DNA of 25,465 nt from a virus. This document shows, one piece after another, positions 7,584-25,219 of the stretch. The notes beneath the pieces were generated by a model, which saw only the letters and a list, made by a program, of their open reading frames with translations, had not been told where the DNA came from and searched no databases. The position numbers and the translations under genes were made by a program. Numbering within the stretch: the stretch's first letter is position 1; the number at the start of each line of letters is the position of its first letter. The stretch lies in IMG/VR virus record IMGVR_UViG_3300034190_001094, positions 1 through 25,465 of that record. One strand, given 5' to 3'.

Positions 7584-8128
7584 ATCCAACTTATAAATGA
7601 GTAACGAATACCTTTAGTTACTGGTTTTACGACATGTGGATAAATGAAATTACTAGGAAAAATTAGAATATCACCTTTTGAAAACTCTCTTTGTTTGTCT
7701 ATCATAAAGAATTCTCCACCCTCAAAATCATCATTAAGTAAACCTAACACACTTAGTATAGGAACACCTTTTCTTTCACCATCAAACATAGAATGTATGT
7801 GGTCACAATGAAGAGCCATCTCTTTACTCTCTTCATACTTATTAAATCTTACATGTGAGTAACCTTGATACTCACTAAACCAAGGCATATTTAAATCTTT
7901 AACATATTGGCTTGCTGTGTCATCAACAATTTTGTTTAGTTGATTTTTAGTTGGTACATTATCCCAACTCATAGATAATTCTTTATCTTCATCTCTAGGT
8001 TTAGTTTCACCTGTTGTTGCATTATAAAAATTATGTTTCTGAAAATTTATAGTACCCATGGCATGTACCGTATGTTCACATAGACTTTCAGATACAGCAC
8101 CTTTATATAATTTGGCGTATTGTTGCAT
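7577..8128 (-). CDS. 2OG-Fe(II) oxygenase
   Basis: A 183-residue prolyl-hydroxylase-like dioxygenase that would use 2-oxoglutarate, O2 and Fe(II) to hydroxylate an unknown substrate. The iron ligands are visible as HCD (His107, Asp109) and a distal His165 in FIYPHVV. Arg175 in KGIRYSF, ten residues on, is placed to bind 2-oxoglutarate. The strand pattern between them (GGEFFMIDKQREFSKGDILIFPS) is typical of the double-stranded beta-helix. Such oxygenases are frequent in T4-like marine phages; protein or nucleic-acid bases are possible targets. The start ATG overlaps the TAA of the helicase gene (TAATG). Confidence 0.93.
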   Translation of the reverse strand: MQQYAKLYKGAVSESLCEHTVHAMGTINFQKHNFYNATTGETKPRDEDKELSMSWDNVPTKNQLNKIVDDTASQYVKDLNMPWFSEYQGYSHVRFNKYEESKEMALHCDHIHSMFDGERKGVPILSVLGLLNDDFEGGEFFMIDKQREFSKGDILIFPSNFIYPHVVKPVTKGIRYSFISWIW

Positions 8129-19548: not shown

Positions 19549-19577
19549 ATTATATATCATATCTCATCAAATGGCAA
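19549..19577 (-). promoter_or_regulatory. Sigma70-like promoter for the replication operon (gene 45)
   Basis: TTGCCA (19577-19572), 17-base spacer, perfect TATAAT (19554-19549) on the minus strand. The -35 overlaps the last codons and stop of the peroxiredoxin gene. Confidence 0.88.
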
Positions 19578-20100
19578 GTCCAAGATGCTTAGCCACATTT
19601 TCTGGAGATGTTTCACCATATGGGTCATTTTCACCACTATCTTTAGGTTCAATAAACCATTTCTCAATTACATTATCATTTACGATACATGCATAACGCC
19701 ATGACCGATTACCAAAACACACATCGGATTTATCTGTTATCATACCCATACCATTGGTAAACTCACCATTGCCATCAGGTATTACTTTAACATTTTTTAT
19801 GCCTAAGTGTTTTGCCCAAGCGTTCATAACGAAACTGTCATTAACAGATACTACATAGATTTCATCTATACCAGCATCTTTAAATTTTTGATAGTTCTCT
19901 TCAAAACCTGGTAGTTGATATGTACTACAAGTAGGAGTAAATGCTCCAGGTAATGAGAATAAAATTACTTTTTTACCACCAAACAATTCAGTTGATGATA
20001 GGCCAACATACTCACCACCAATAGGGCAACCACCTTCTTCTGGTTGTTCATCACCTACACGGCATTGGAAAGTTACATCGGGTATTCTTTTTGGTATCAT
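19567..20100 (-). CDS. Peroxiredoxin, Prx5-like
   Basis: A 177-residue thiol peroxidase expected to reduce H2O2 and alkyl peroxides. The peroxidatic Cys58 is in LPGAFTPTCS, with the catalytic Thr upstream, and the supporting Arg is in GNRSWRYACI. Other cysteines (13, 25, 128, 138) could act as resolving residues; I cannot tell which. The C-terminus KDSGENDPYGETSPENVAKHLG is typical of the Prx5 branch. The start at 20100 has AAGGA seven bases upstream. A longer reading from 20169 would run through the glycine tRNA and is rejected. It is probably cotranscribed with the two tRNAs from the promoter at about 20.3 kb. Confidence 0.95.
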   Translation of the reverse strand: MIPKRIPDVTFQCRVGDEQPEEGGCPIGGEYVGLSSTELFGGKKVILFSLPGAFTPTCSTYQLPGFEENYQKFKDAGIDEIYVVSVNDSFVMNAWAKHLGIKNVKVIPDGNGEFTNGMGMITDKSDVCFGNRSWRYACIVNDNVIEKWFIEPKDSGENDPYGETSPENVAKHLGLAI

Positions 20101-20124: not shown

Positions 20125-20199
20125 TGGAGCGAGTAGGGAATTTCGCAATCCCGACCTCTTCGTTGGCAACGAAGCGCTCTACTTCTGAGCTATACTCGC
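20125..20199 (-). tRNA. tRNA-Gly (anticodon GCC), CCA encoded, non-canonical D/T loops
   Basis: A full cloverleaf can be drawn: acceptor GCGAGTA/TACTCGC (7 bp), D stem GCTC/GAGC, anticodon stem CTTCG/CGAAG with loop TTGCCAA (anticodon GCC), five-base variable loop, T stem GGGAT/TTCCC with a T-T clash at 53-61, discriminator U73 and an encoded CCA. Glycine identity bases expected for bacterial GlyRS (G1-C72, C2-G71, U73, C35, C36) are all present. The D loop AGAAGTA has A18-G19 instead of GG. The T loop TGCGAAA has G at 55 instead of U, while C56 and A58 remain. Confidence 0.88.
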
Positions 20200-20206
20200 A
20201 TAAATT

Positions 20207-20280
20207 TGGAGCGGAGTGATTGTACTGCCCAATCTTCTCTTGGTTGGAAACCAAGTGTGTTACTTTTATACTAACTCCGC
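20207..20280 (-). tRNA. tRNA-Gly (anticodon UCC), CCA encoded, strongly non-canonical T loop
   Basis: Acceptor GCGGAGT/ACTCCGC (7 bp), D stem GTAT/ACAC with one A-C mismatch, anticodon stem CTTGG/CCAAG with loop TTTCCAA (anticodon TCC), four-base variable loop, T stem GATTG/CAATC, U73 and an encoded CCA. G1-C72, C2-G71 and C35-C36 are kept. The D loop AAAAGTA lacks the GG pair. The T loop GGCAGTA lacks T54, U55 and A58, keeping C56. It lies seven bases upstream of the other glycine tRNA on the same transcript. Confidence 0.82.
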
Positions 20281-20298: not shown

Positions 20299-20327
20299 AT
20301 AATACACTAAAGGCGTCCTAATGTCAA
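20299..20327 (-). promoter_or_regulatory. Sigma70 promoter for the tRNA-peroxiredoxin unit
   Basis: TTGACA (20327-20322), 17-base spacer, TATTAT (20304-20299) on the minus strand, about 12 bases before the expected transcript start near the first tRNA. Its -35 lies in the loop of the hairpin that ends the hsp20 transcript. Unlike the other promoters it has TTGACA rather than TTGCCA. Confidence 0.8.
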
Positions 20328-20339
20328 GCCTAGGACGCC
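20312..20339 (-). terminator. Perfect 9-bp hairpin after hsp20
   Basis: GGCGTCCTA and TAGGACGCC form a perfect stem around a ten-base loop, 13 bases past the hsp20 stop, followed by only a short TTT. The weak T tract makes it a leaky terminator or an RNA-stabilising 3' hairpin. Confidence 0.65.
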
Positions 20340-20352
20340 AATAGCCTAATTA

Positions 20353-20805
20353 TTATTTAATGTTGATAGTTCTAGCTTTCTTATGGTCTGGAACAATCTT
20401 CTCTAAAGATACTTTTAAAAGACCATCTTTTAATTCAGCACCTTTAACTTCGATATCATCAGCAACTGTAAATGATTTAGAGAAGCTTCTCTTAGCAATG
20501 CCTTGATGTAATACACCATCATTGTCTTCCACTTCTTTTTCTTCTTTACTTTTTACTGATTGGATTTTAAGAATATTATCCTCAAAATCTACTGAGATAT
20601 CCTTTTTACCATAGCCAGCTAACGCCACTTCAATATCATATGTTAAAGAACCTGTCTTTACGATATTGTATGGTGGGTAGTTATTGGCTGTTAGACTAGG
20701 TAGATGATTAGTCATGTGGTCGAAATGTTCAAACATATCGTCAAACCCCACGGTAAACGGTCTTAGTCCTGTAAAAATTGAATGAATTGCTTTGTGATTT
20801 GTCAT
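20353..20805 (-). CDS. hsp20: Small heat-shock protein Hsp20
   Basis: A 150-residue alpha-crystallin family chaperone (IbpA-like) that would hold unfolding proteins. The N-terminal region has FDDMFEHFDHM. The alpha-crystallin domain begins at YPPYNIVKTGSLTYDIEVAL and includes the conserved LAGYGKKDI, FEDNILKI and AKRSFSKSFTVADDIEV. It closes with LKDGLLKVSLEK, and the C-terminal I-x-I motif is seen in ARTINIK. Hsp20 genes are common in T4-like marine phages and are suspected to help capsid assembly or host stress. AAGGAG precedes the ATG with good spacing, and a T4 late promoter lies about 60 bases upstream. Confidence 0.97.
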   Translation of the reverse strand: MTNHKAIHSIFTGLRPFTVGFDDMFEHFDHMTNHLPSLTANNYPPYNIVKTGSLTYDIEVALAGYGKKDISVDFEDNILKIQSVKSKEEKEVEDNDGVLHQGIAKRSFSKSFTVADDIEVKGAELKDGLLKVSLEKIVPDHKKARTINIK

Positions 20806-21261: not shown

Positions 21262-21462
21262 TTATCGCATCTGCTCTAACTTTTTCATCTTCTTTTTATA
21301 ATTCTTTATACCAGCCTTTTTAGCTTCACGCTTGATTTCACTAGGCTTCATATAGTGCTGACGGTCTCTAAGTTCTTTGAGAAGGCCTGACTTTTGTACT
21401 TTTTTCTTAAGCACTCTTAATGCCTTTTCTAAGTTACCGTTTCTTACTTCAACATATACCAT
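21262..21462 (-). CDS. rpsU: Ribosomal protein bS21
   Basis: A 66-residue homologue of bacterial ribosomal protein bS21, which sits at the 30S platform near the Shine-Dalgarno/anti-Shine-Dalgarno helix. The N-terminus MVYVEVRNGNLEKALRVLKKK and the central SGLLKELRDRQHYMKPSEIKRE are diagnostic; the basic tail NYKKKMKKLEQMR is usual. I chose the ATG at 21462 (AAAGGA upstream) because it gives the normal bS21 start. A longer frame from 21519 would cross the late promoter. Phage-encoded bS21 is known in Pelagibacter myophages. It could replace host bS21 and bias initiation to phage mRNAs. Confidence 0.96.
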   Translation of the reverse strand: MVYVEVRNGNLEKALRVLKKKVQKSGLLKELRDRQHYMKPSEIKREAKKAGIKNYKKKMKKLEQMR

Positions 21463-21491
21463 GTTGTCCTTTCCGTTAAATTGAGTAGTGT

Positions 21492-21499
21492 TATTTATA
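21492..21499 (-). promoter_or_regulatory. T4-type late promoter for bS21
   Basis: TATAAATA on the minus strand, 29 bases before the bS21 ATG. The next eight bases, ACACTACT, complement the loop of the terminator just upstream. Confidence 0.75.
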
Positions 21500-21507
21500 A
21501 TAAGGTT

Positions 21508-21531
21508 GGTGGGGGACACTACTCCCCCACC
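21508..21531 (-). terminator. Perfect 8-bp GC-rich hairpin after cobS-like gene
   Basis: GGTGGGGG and CCCCCACC form a perfect stem with an eight-base loop AGTAGTGT (minus strand), 25 bases after the stop of the AAA+ gene, followed by AACCTTATTAT. There is little T tract. It separates the cobS-like unit from bS21. Confidence 0.65.
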
Positions 21532-22924: not shown

Positions 22925-25219
22925 TTACGCCACCTCCTTGATAAATTTGTTTAGAACAACTCTGGAAACCAATCTTGATTGCATTGATTTACCAAATAGT
23001 CTTTTGAATTCTGAAGGAGTTGCCTTTTTAATTTCTGCATCATCGAAACTAAAGTTCTCAACATTCATTTTTTTGCCATCAAGTAAGAAGTATTTACTGT
23101 AACCACTTTTATTGATAGCAATTGCCTTATCTCTGGTCATTTCTTTTCTAAGTTTGTTGTATTCTTTTTCTCTTTGTAACCAATCACCCTCACAATACTG
23201 TTCAATATCCCATCTTCTAACTCTTTTAAGAATATAGAAACCAACATTGTTAGATTGATTTTTTACTTGAATAAGTTTTAACAGTTTACTAGTTAAAGTT
23301 TCATCAGTTAGTACAATCTTTTTCTTACCATGATTGATAACTTTTACACCATCATAACCAACATACTTTCTGTTTTCAATCTGACCATAGTCATCTAACA
23401 TACCAGTTGATTTGATATAACCTCTGAAGCAGTTAGCACCACCATCGGTCAAGGTAATAAATGTCAACTTCTCAATATTGTATTTTTGTTTAAACAATGG
23501 TATCAACTTGTCCATATATACAAGCGCTTCATTCAATGGTGTATTACCAAGGTACAATGAAGAAGGACAACCAAAGCTGTCGTATCTGTACATCTGAGCC
23601 TTTTCATTCCAGTTTTTAGTGTAAGTATAGTTGTGAGTAAAGTATTTACCAAAGTGGTACATATACATACATGCTTGTTCAAATTCTTGTTTTTTCATTC
23701 TGTGACTAAAACAGTTTACAAGATTGAAGTCATCAAACATCCAATCACCGTCTTTATAATTAAAAGACTTTTTAGCTTTTTCTTTTCTTTCAGAAGTAAA
23801 GAAGTAAACTTCAAAAGGTATGTTTACTTTTCTACAAAACTCAACAAGGTTTAGCAACTGTTCAACTGTATTACCAAGTGTATCAGACATGGATCCAGAC
23901 CAATCTAATAACATAATCATACCATGGTTTTTACCGTCAGGTATAATTGTCAATCTTTTAAAGATATCATCTGAAAATTTGTAGTCTTTAAGTTTTAATG
24001 GGTCAAGGACACCAGTTTTATCTTGCGATGCTCTCTTGTAAGCAGTAGCAGATTTTTTCATCTCAAATTCTTTTACAAGATACATAACAGTTTTCTTGTT
24101 ATCATTCTGAAATTTTTTGTATTCTGCTTTTAAGAATGTCATATACTTGGCATCTTTGTAAGAATAACCAGCCAAGTGAGTTCTTTGTTTCTGTATCAGT
24201 TTAAAGTATTCTTTGTAAGAAATAATACTATCAAGGTTTGCATCAGGCATATTAGCATAGTGATATGTTGAAGCGCCTTTGTCTAGTAACTGACTTTTTG
24301 CTCTCTCAAAGGCATCATCTGTAATTGCTCTAAGAGCTGGTAATTCTTTACTACCATCAGAACCTTTAGCAAAAGCTTTTGGTGTGTCATCATCATCTTC
24401 GACATCATCATCACCAGTTTTGTTAGAAGCGCTAGAAGATTTACTTTTTTCTTCTGATTTCTCTTCACTGTCAGGTTGATTGTTGTCATGGTCACCAAAG
24501 TTATTGAAATCATTTTTTTCATCGGCATCATTATCGTCACCGTCAGCACCTGAACCATCTTGGTCATTCTCATCATCAAAATCGTCTTCATCTGATAAGT
24601 CATAATTTTGTGCAATCTCTAAGTCATCGAAATTAGGTAACTTTTGCATCTGGTCAATTTGTTCTTTCTGCCATGCCAACATTTCATTAGCAAGTTTAAG
24701 AACATCATCAAAGGTAACAAGAGCATCAACTTTAGATAACCATTCATTGTCTTGGTCATTGAAGTCAAAAGGCAATCTGTTTAGAGATTTAGACCTTAGA
24801 TTAATCTTGTCAATAATCATAAGGTCAGTATTAATATTTTTACCTTTAAGACCAAAGAAATTCTTTTTTTCAAGGATTTCAAAACCATTCATATAGTTTT
24901 TCACAACACCAGGATACTTAGCTTGAATTAACTTATCAATTCTAGTATCTTCTAACACATTTACATAAGACCTCAACTCAGAAGAACCAATGCCTTCCCA
25001 CTCTTCATATGGAGTCCAAAGGGCATGAGAACATTCGTGAGCAATTAACATATCATAGACATCACCTTTTTGCTCTTCGAAAATAGGCAATGTTAATACT
25101 CTGTTCTTTACATCGAAAGAAGCAGTAGCAACTTTGTTATGTTGGATTGTAATATTCTCAGTAGCAAGTAATTTTGCTAGATTTGATTTGACTTCTAAAT
25201 TGATAGTGTTTTTTTTCAT
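22925..25219 (-). CDS. CobT-like protein: HExxH metallopeptidase-type N-domain plus VWA domain
   Basis: A 764-residue protein from the ATG at 25219. Near residues 61-65 AHECSHALW is a zinc HExxH motif; NVLEDTRID about 25 residues later supplies a likely third ligand. Residues about 208-282 are a long Asp/Glu/Ser/Asn-rich linker, as in CobT. Around 435-450 MLLDWSGSMSD is the MIDAS (DxSxS) of a von Willebrand A domain, and LTFITLTDGGANC gives the distal MIDAS Asp. This architecture pairs with CobS/MoxR ATPases. The start was chosen because AAAGGACACA-ACACTATG is the same leader as for the cobS-like gene; the longer frame from 25273 would start inside the promoter. Cellular target unknown. Confidence 0.93.
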   Translation of the reverse strand: MKKNTINLEVKSNLAKLLATENITIQHNKVATASFDVKNRVLTLPIFEEQKGDVYDMLIAHECSHALWTPYEEWEGIGSSELRSYVNVLEDTRIDKLIQAKYPGVVKNYMNGFEILEKKNFFGLKGKNINTDLMIIDKINLRSKSLNRLPFDFNDQDNEWLSKVDALVTFDDVLKLANEMLAWQKEQIDQMQKLPNFDDLEIAQNYDLSDEDDFDDENDQDGSGADGDDNDADEKNDFNNFGDHDNNQPDSEEKSEEKSKSSSASNKTGDDDVEDDDDTPKAFAKGSDGSKELPALRAITDDAFERAKSQLLDKGASTYHYANMPDANLDSIISYKEYFKLIQKQRTHLAGYSYKDAKYMTFLKAEYKKFQNDNKKTVMYLVKEFEMKKSATAYKRASQDKTGVLDPLKLKDYKFSDDIFKRLTIIPDGKNHGMIMLLDWSGSMSDTLGNTVEQLLNLVEFCRKVNIPFEVYFFTSERKEKAKKSFNYKDGDWMFDDFNLVNCFSHRMKKQEFEQACMYMYHFGKYFTHNYTYTKNWNEKAQMYRYDSFGCPSSLYLGNTPLNEALVYMDKLIPLFKQKYNIEKLTFITLTDGGANCFRGYIKSTGMLDDYGQIENRKYVGYDGVKVINHGKKKIVLTDETLTSKLLKLIQVKNQSNNVGFYILKRVRRWDIEQYCEGDWLQREKEYNKLRKEMTRDKAIAINKSGYSKYFLLDGKKMNVENFSFDDAEIKKATPSEFKRLFGKSMQSRLVSRVVLNKFIKEVA

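Follow-up and report, generated by a model that had tools for sequence, protein, structure and literature searches.

A pair of glycine tRNA genes of a probable pelagiphage, with A18 and G55 at the elbow, bases also seen in tRNAs of SAR11 bacteria

Reviews describe Psi55 as universally conserved and regard the 18-55 contact as an invariable element of tRNA architecture (PMC4810234, PMC7912444), and a word search of three reviews returned no mention of A18. Glycine tRNAs with deviating elbows are described from staphylococci, where the non-proteinogenic tRNA-Gly species have G18G19 replaced by UU or CU, and where the A49-U65 and A51-U63 pairs of S. aureus tRNA-Gly weaken EF-Tu binding (PMC4052509). 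Phage tRNAs with anticodon-loop changes predicting nuclease resistance have also been published; a word search of that paper returned no mention of T-loop, D-loop or elbow (PMC10264068). A literature search on pelagiphages and tRNA-Gly found no paper, and papers on Pelagibacter and truB contained single passing mentions only. Here we describe two tRNA-Gly genes, with anticodons GCC and UCC, from a 25,465-nucleotide stretch of viral DNA (IMG/VR record IMGVR_UViG_3300034190_001094; hereafter the window).

The window is a 25 kb piece of a T4-like phage genome. Its DNA polymerase shares 75% identity with the polymerase of Pelagibacter phage Mosig EXVC030M, the next best matches being cyanophages at near 50%, and this relatedness to Mosig makes SAR11 (Pelagibacterales) the likely host. 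The tRNA pair sits on the minus strand between two genes of the same strand: upstream hsp20, encoding a small heat shock protein (20353..20805; ORF list, Mosig annotation and relatives), and downstream a gene (19567..20100; ORF list and homologues) that we take from its sequence to belong to a peroxiredoxin-like family. The listed TTG start of the latter, at 20169, falls within the GCC tRNA, so translation more likely begins at the ATG at 20100. Near the pair, an ORF at 21262-21519 resembles a Mosig gene annotated as ribosomal protein S21; one N-acetyltransferase is also annotated in Mosig. An Rfam match to TtnuCD10 at 24299-24414 scored far under the cut-off and was taken as chance.

Both tRNA genes align as full-length cloverleaves to Rfam model RF00005 (gathering cut-off 29), the GCC gene at 20199-20128 with 55.8 bits and the UCC gene at 20280-20210 with 42.6 bits, while ARAGORN run on the window detected the GCC gene and missed the UCC one. 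In each, U73 is followed by an encoded CCA (20127-20125 and 20209-20207), giving total extents of 20125..20199 and 20207..20280; direct reading agrees. The D-loop and T-loop read AGAAGUA and UGCGAAA in the GCC gene, AAAAGUA and GGCAGUA in the UCC gene. Numbered from the Rfam alignment, both have A18 and G55 where canonical tRNAs have G18 and U(Psi)55, and G19-C56 of the canonical elbow is retained in both as well as in the related sequences of our alignment A2. They thus share cloverleaf, glycine identity elements and encoded CCA with canonical bacterial and T4-like tRNA-Gly but differ in A18/G55, and the UCC type differs further in having G54/G58 and A15/A48, the latter where a Levitt pair is expected. 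The bacterial tRNA-Gly identity set (G1-C72, C2-G71, G3-C70, U73 and C35-C36) is present in both. The T-stem has G49-C65 and G51-C63 in the GCC gene, G49-C65 and U51-A63 in the UCC gene, and the GCC copy of the window has U53/U61 in place of G53-C61, a mismatch that could weaken it. A preliminary description of this DNA had listed A18 and G55 with G19 and C56 kept in both genes, the loss of T54 and A58 from the UCC gene, and the retention of G1-C72, C2-G71, U73 and C35-C36; these readings are borne out by the sequence, the elbow bases also by the Rfam alignment.

Related loci were taken from IMG/VR as stretches around hsp20, and a covariance model built from 14 tRNAs gave 87 matches in 76 of them, comprising 34 distinct sequences. 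A18, G19, G55 and C56 are held together by 32 of the 34, including all type-2 tRNAs (those with a UCC or ACC anticodon adjoining hsp20). The sole exceptions to A18/G55 are the canonical GCC tRNAs of three loci (L073/L075 and L074; two distinct sequences), which form one clade outside the remaining loci in the hsp20 tree. Across the relatives 96.4% of stem cells are paired and both partners have changed in 173 cells, well beyond what shuffled and shifted controls gave, the pairing figure being somewhat favoured by an alignment fitted to the structure. The first three acceptor pairs and C35/C36 are invariant, and positions 54/58 vary (U-A, G-G, C-A, A-U) while 18, 19, 55 and 56 stay constant. 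Stem covariation together with this constancy indicates that the genes were selected as folded tRNAs and that the elbow bases were fixed; the A18/G55 feature is therefore neither sequencing error nor decay. The preliminary description had argued that the same 18-55 change in both genes spoke against random decay, and had named canonical loops in related phages as the finding that would undo this; its argument stands, canonical loops being confined to the three outgroup GCC loci.

The two genes appear to have reached A18/G55 separately, from a T4-type and a host-type lineage, as judged from sequence similarity. The tRNA-Gly(UCC) of T4 is canonical, and an acceptor and D-arm stretch, GCGGATATCGTATAA..GTATTAC, is common to it and to the type-2 gene of Mosig. 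The GCC-type phage gene resembles SAR11 tRNA-Gly(GCC), which is itself canonical. The Pro, Arg and Leu tRNAs of Mosig are also canonical. As a separate observation, tRNA-Gly(UCC) genes of other phages, reached through a peroxiredoxin query (L106:4722-4796 and L109:5159-5233), carry A18/G55 too.

SAR11 genomes were reached by a 16S probe. They carry canonical tRNA-Gly genes, which shows that a SAR11 glycine tRNA can do without the swap. A18/G55 was nevertheless found in SAR11 tRNA-Val(GAC) and tRNA-Phe(GAA), which share the swap with the phage genes but serve other amino acids and lie on the host chromosome. The elbow pattern was matched in 106 of 197 genomes of the SAR11 order; a looser pattern run on a 385-genome sample of the class gave three matches, all in SAR11 genomes already found by the order search. 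In a closed SAR11 genome (G005; a single contig of 1,199,990 bases) there were 33 tRNA matches, and the only tRNA-Phe found among them has A18/G55, therefore the elbow must work in translation. A tRNA-Phe pattern was matched in 20 of 28 genomes checked, once each, in swapped or canonical form. In addition, the T-arm of SAR11 tmRNA reads GUGGG-GGCAGUA-CCCAC in three genomes (L625-L627), the usual T-loop being UUCRANN, and its loop GGCAGUA is identical to that of the phage UCC/ACC tRNA.

Within the order this elbow goes with the absence of TruB, the Psi55 synthase. The TruB domain PF01509 was not found in the SAR11 genomes G002, G005 and G007; another pseudouridine synthase family was present in all eight SAR11 genomes tested. 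Among 78 genomes of the order, A18/G55 tRNAs occur in 0 of 37 TruB-positive and 26 of 41 TruB-negative ones (Fisher p 1.8e-10, a value that overstates independence as the genomes are related and some incomplete, the clean separation being the main point), and the remaining 15 TruB-less genomes gave no match to the strict elbow pattern. To judge from gene content, SAR11 lacking TruB are unlikely to form Psi55 in the usual way. The association with TruB is correlative, comes from a single order and is confounded by descent.

The coupling between positions 18 and 55 extends to other viruses. We collected 457 distinct viral tRNAs, none itself matching the search patterns; of the 65 with G55, 62 have A18 and none has G18, whereas among the 389 with U55, G18 is present in 369 and A18 in a single one (position 18 could be placed at any of three sites in the loop, which may have misassigned a few tRNAs without altering the trend). 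In all ten viral tRNAs lacking C56, a base complementary to the one at 56 can be placed at 19. In a wider pattern scan the swapped elbow appeared in most isotypes of other phages, and one viral contig of 62% GC (L617:474-4842) has 27 tRNAs of many isotypes, all of which carry G55 rather than U55 and apparently lack an encoded CCA. Among 97 tRNAs of T4, CcrColossus, DSS3_MAL1, JustBecause, XacN1, Atu_ph07 and Phosso the swapped elbow was not found, all having U55 and C56. With similar elbows in many unrelated phages, loss of TruB may not explain the swap in general. Two narrower ideas fell away at this stage: a glycine-only effect, suggested by a first survey in which all 60 distinct viral tRNAs of other isotypes had U55, was ruled out by the wider scan, and the elbow-contacting domains of AlaRS and GlyRS, considered as a reason why tRNA-Gly and tmRNA are affected, were dropped once Val, Phe, Met, Arg and other tRNAs appeared. 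In several phage tRNAs G19-C56 itself seems to be replaced by A19-U56, U19-A56 or C19-G56 (L508, L512, L521, L530, L534, L570, L115 and L142), so that covariation would extend to this other elbow pair.

Codon use bears on what the tRNAs do. In the window 78% of glycine codons are GGU and in Mosig 69%, compared with 37% in SAR11 loci; GGA accounts for 7-15% in the phages and 42% in SAR11. No related phage combines the anticodons ACC and GCC (17 loci with ACC in the type-2 gene and at least 3 kb downstream vs 20 GCC+UCC loci; p 3e-5, to which relatedness among the loci applies), and either arrangement adds a reader of GGU. Codon use and the alternation of anticodons thus support a ribosomal role, and the job of the phage tRNAs would be to increase the reading of glycine codons, chiefly GGU, during infection.

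We consider it probable that both genes encode working tRNA-Gly that a T4-like pelagiphage uses in translation, with G18-U(Psi)55 swapped for A18-G55, as in TruB-less SAR11. A18 would still lodge between T-loop bases 57 and 58 and pair with G55, and the L-shape would be kept through this pair without pseudouridine. Both genes have a purine at 18 matched to the base at 55, which is the "specific purine trap" reportedly described by Doyon and co-workers in J Mol Biol in 2004, where functional E. coli suppressor tRNAs are said to have had either G18 with U55 or A18 with G55. The proposed contact would fit those laboratory-selected suppressors; the A18+G55 match is the same, but the phage pair is natural, conserved and tied to a lineage. 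SAR11 without detectable TruB have this elbow in their own tRNA-Val(GAC) and tRNA-Phe(GAA), and SAR11 tmRNA has the T-loop of the UCC gene; the phage tRNAs probably follow the form of this host lineage. Both are presumed to be expressed and charged. The canonical GCC tRNAs of the outgroup phages and the canonical Pro, Arg and Leu tRNAs of Mosig are counterpoints. As for how it came about, we tentatively suggest, at somewhat less than even confidence, that TruB loss in a major SAR11 clade allowed or drove the change from G18-Psi55 to A18-G55 in several host tRNAs, and that the phages independently rebuilt a T4-type and a host-type tRNA-Gly in the same way.

Two other readings address the swap itself. 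It might let phage tRNAs evade host or rival nucleases, or other defence factors, directed at the canonical elbow (U55/Psi55, G18), just as the published anticodon-loop variants are predicted to resist nucleases; those tRNAs are likewise altered relative to the host, though the changes reported for them lie in the anticodon loop. The recurrence of elbow changes in many phages and isotypes, up to the contig with 27 of 27 tRNAs swapped, and the matched changes at 19-56 suit such an escape, yet it would not predict the same elbow in SAR11's own chromosomal tRNAs, and the other Mosig tRNAs are canonical, hence we regard it as unlikely. A slightly poorer candidate is that A18-G55 is a nearly neutral structural alternative spread by compensatory drift and unlinked to host modification. 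Positions 18 and 55 are almost perfectly coupled in whatever isotype or phage, as a pair needing only to match would be, and the 97 canonical tRNAs of the seven known phage records indicate that the swap is not generally favoured. However, drift explains poorly why the swap recurs in two phage tRNA lineages and in host tRNA-Val and tRNA-Phe of one bacterial order, alongside a changed tmRNA T-loop, and why no elbow match was found in TruB-positive members of that order.

The remaining two readings would deny the genes an ordinary function. The preliminary description had likened them to the staphylococcal cell-wall species and proposed a non-ribosomal role through EF-Tu avoidance, as decoys or as glycine donors. 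The likeness is real in that both phage genes combine a deviating elbow with retained glycine identity, and staphylococcal cell-wall tRNA-Gly has G at position 55 too. Yet the phage genes keep G19, have neither UU nor CU at 18-19 and lack the weak A49-U65 and A51-U63 pairs, their anticodons track the dominant glycine codon and so point to decoding, and the elbow is shared by host tRNA-Val(GAC) and by the sole tRNA-Phe found in the closed SAR11 genome; we therefore judge this role very improbable. That description was right about glycine identity, the parallel change at 18 and 55 and the absence of random decay, and adaptation to phage conditions, one of the options it offered, agrees with our reading, whereas its non-ribosomal role is not supported. 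The UCC copy scores low with Rfam and the GCC copy has the U53/U61 mismatch, which might point to decaying or misassembled genes; this is hardly credible given the encoded CCA, the compensation in the stems and conservation over 87 matches, and for the A18/G55 feature the reading is refuted.

If the translational reading is right, SAR11, among the most abundant bacteria of the sea, and its phages provide a natural lineage in which the 18-55 contact has been replaced by a different matched pair, and as the Psi55-making enzyme is undetected in part of SAR11, the constancy of Psi55 and of the 18-55 contact elsewhere becomes testable. A phage tRNA that has lost GG and TUC does not for that reason have to be non-ribosomal, and A18/G55 may serve as a sequence mark for matching phages to hosts.

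The pair is preceded by a candidate promoter, a sigma-70-like element TTGACA-17-TATTAT (20299..20327, minus strand; 11 of 12 consensus matches) that ends 19 bases before the UCC tRNA. Its -35 box TTGACA lies inside a terminator-like hairpin following hsp20 (20312..20339, minus strand; a 10-pair stem from a scan), an arrangement also present in most relatives with differing hairpin sequences. Of 44 distinct upstream stretches in relatives, 24 have a strict TTGACA plus TA...T, and most others have near-matches. Three minor observations concern phage RNAs. A34 occurs in 21 loci of alignment A2, which have anticodon ACC (e.g., L047:5525-5595) and belong to phages related to the GGU-rich Mosig. In phage tmRNAs a G is found at the position of U55, within GUGCAA or GUGCGA (L313:12568-12906, the Mosig tmRNA, and L147, L149 and L154). 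Finally, a tRNA-Gly(ACC) missing from the Mosig annotation overlaps Mosig_000011, which is listed there as a "hypothetical protein" (L160:4863-4936; 7774-7869 of the Mosig record).
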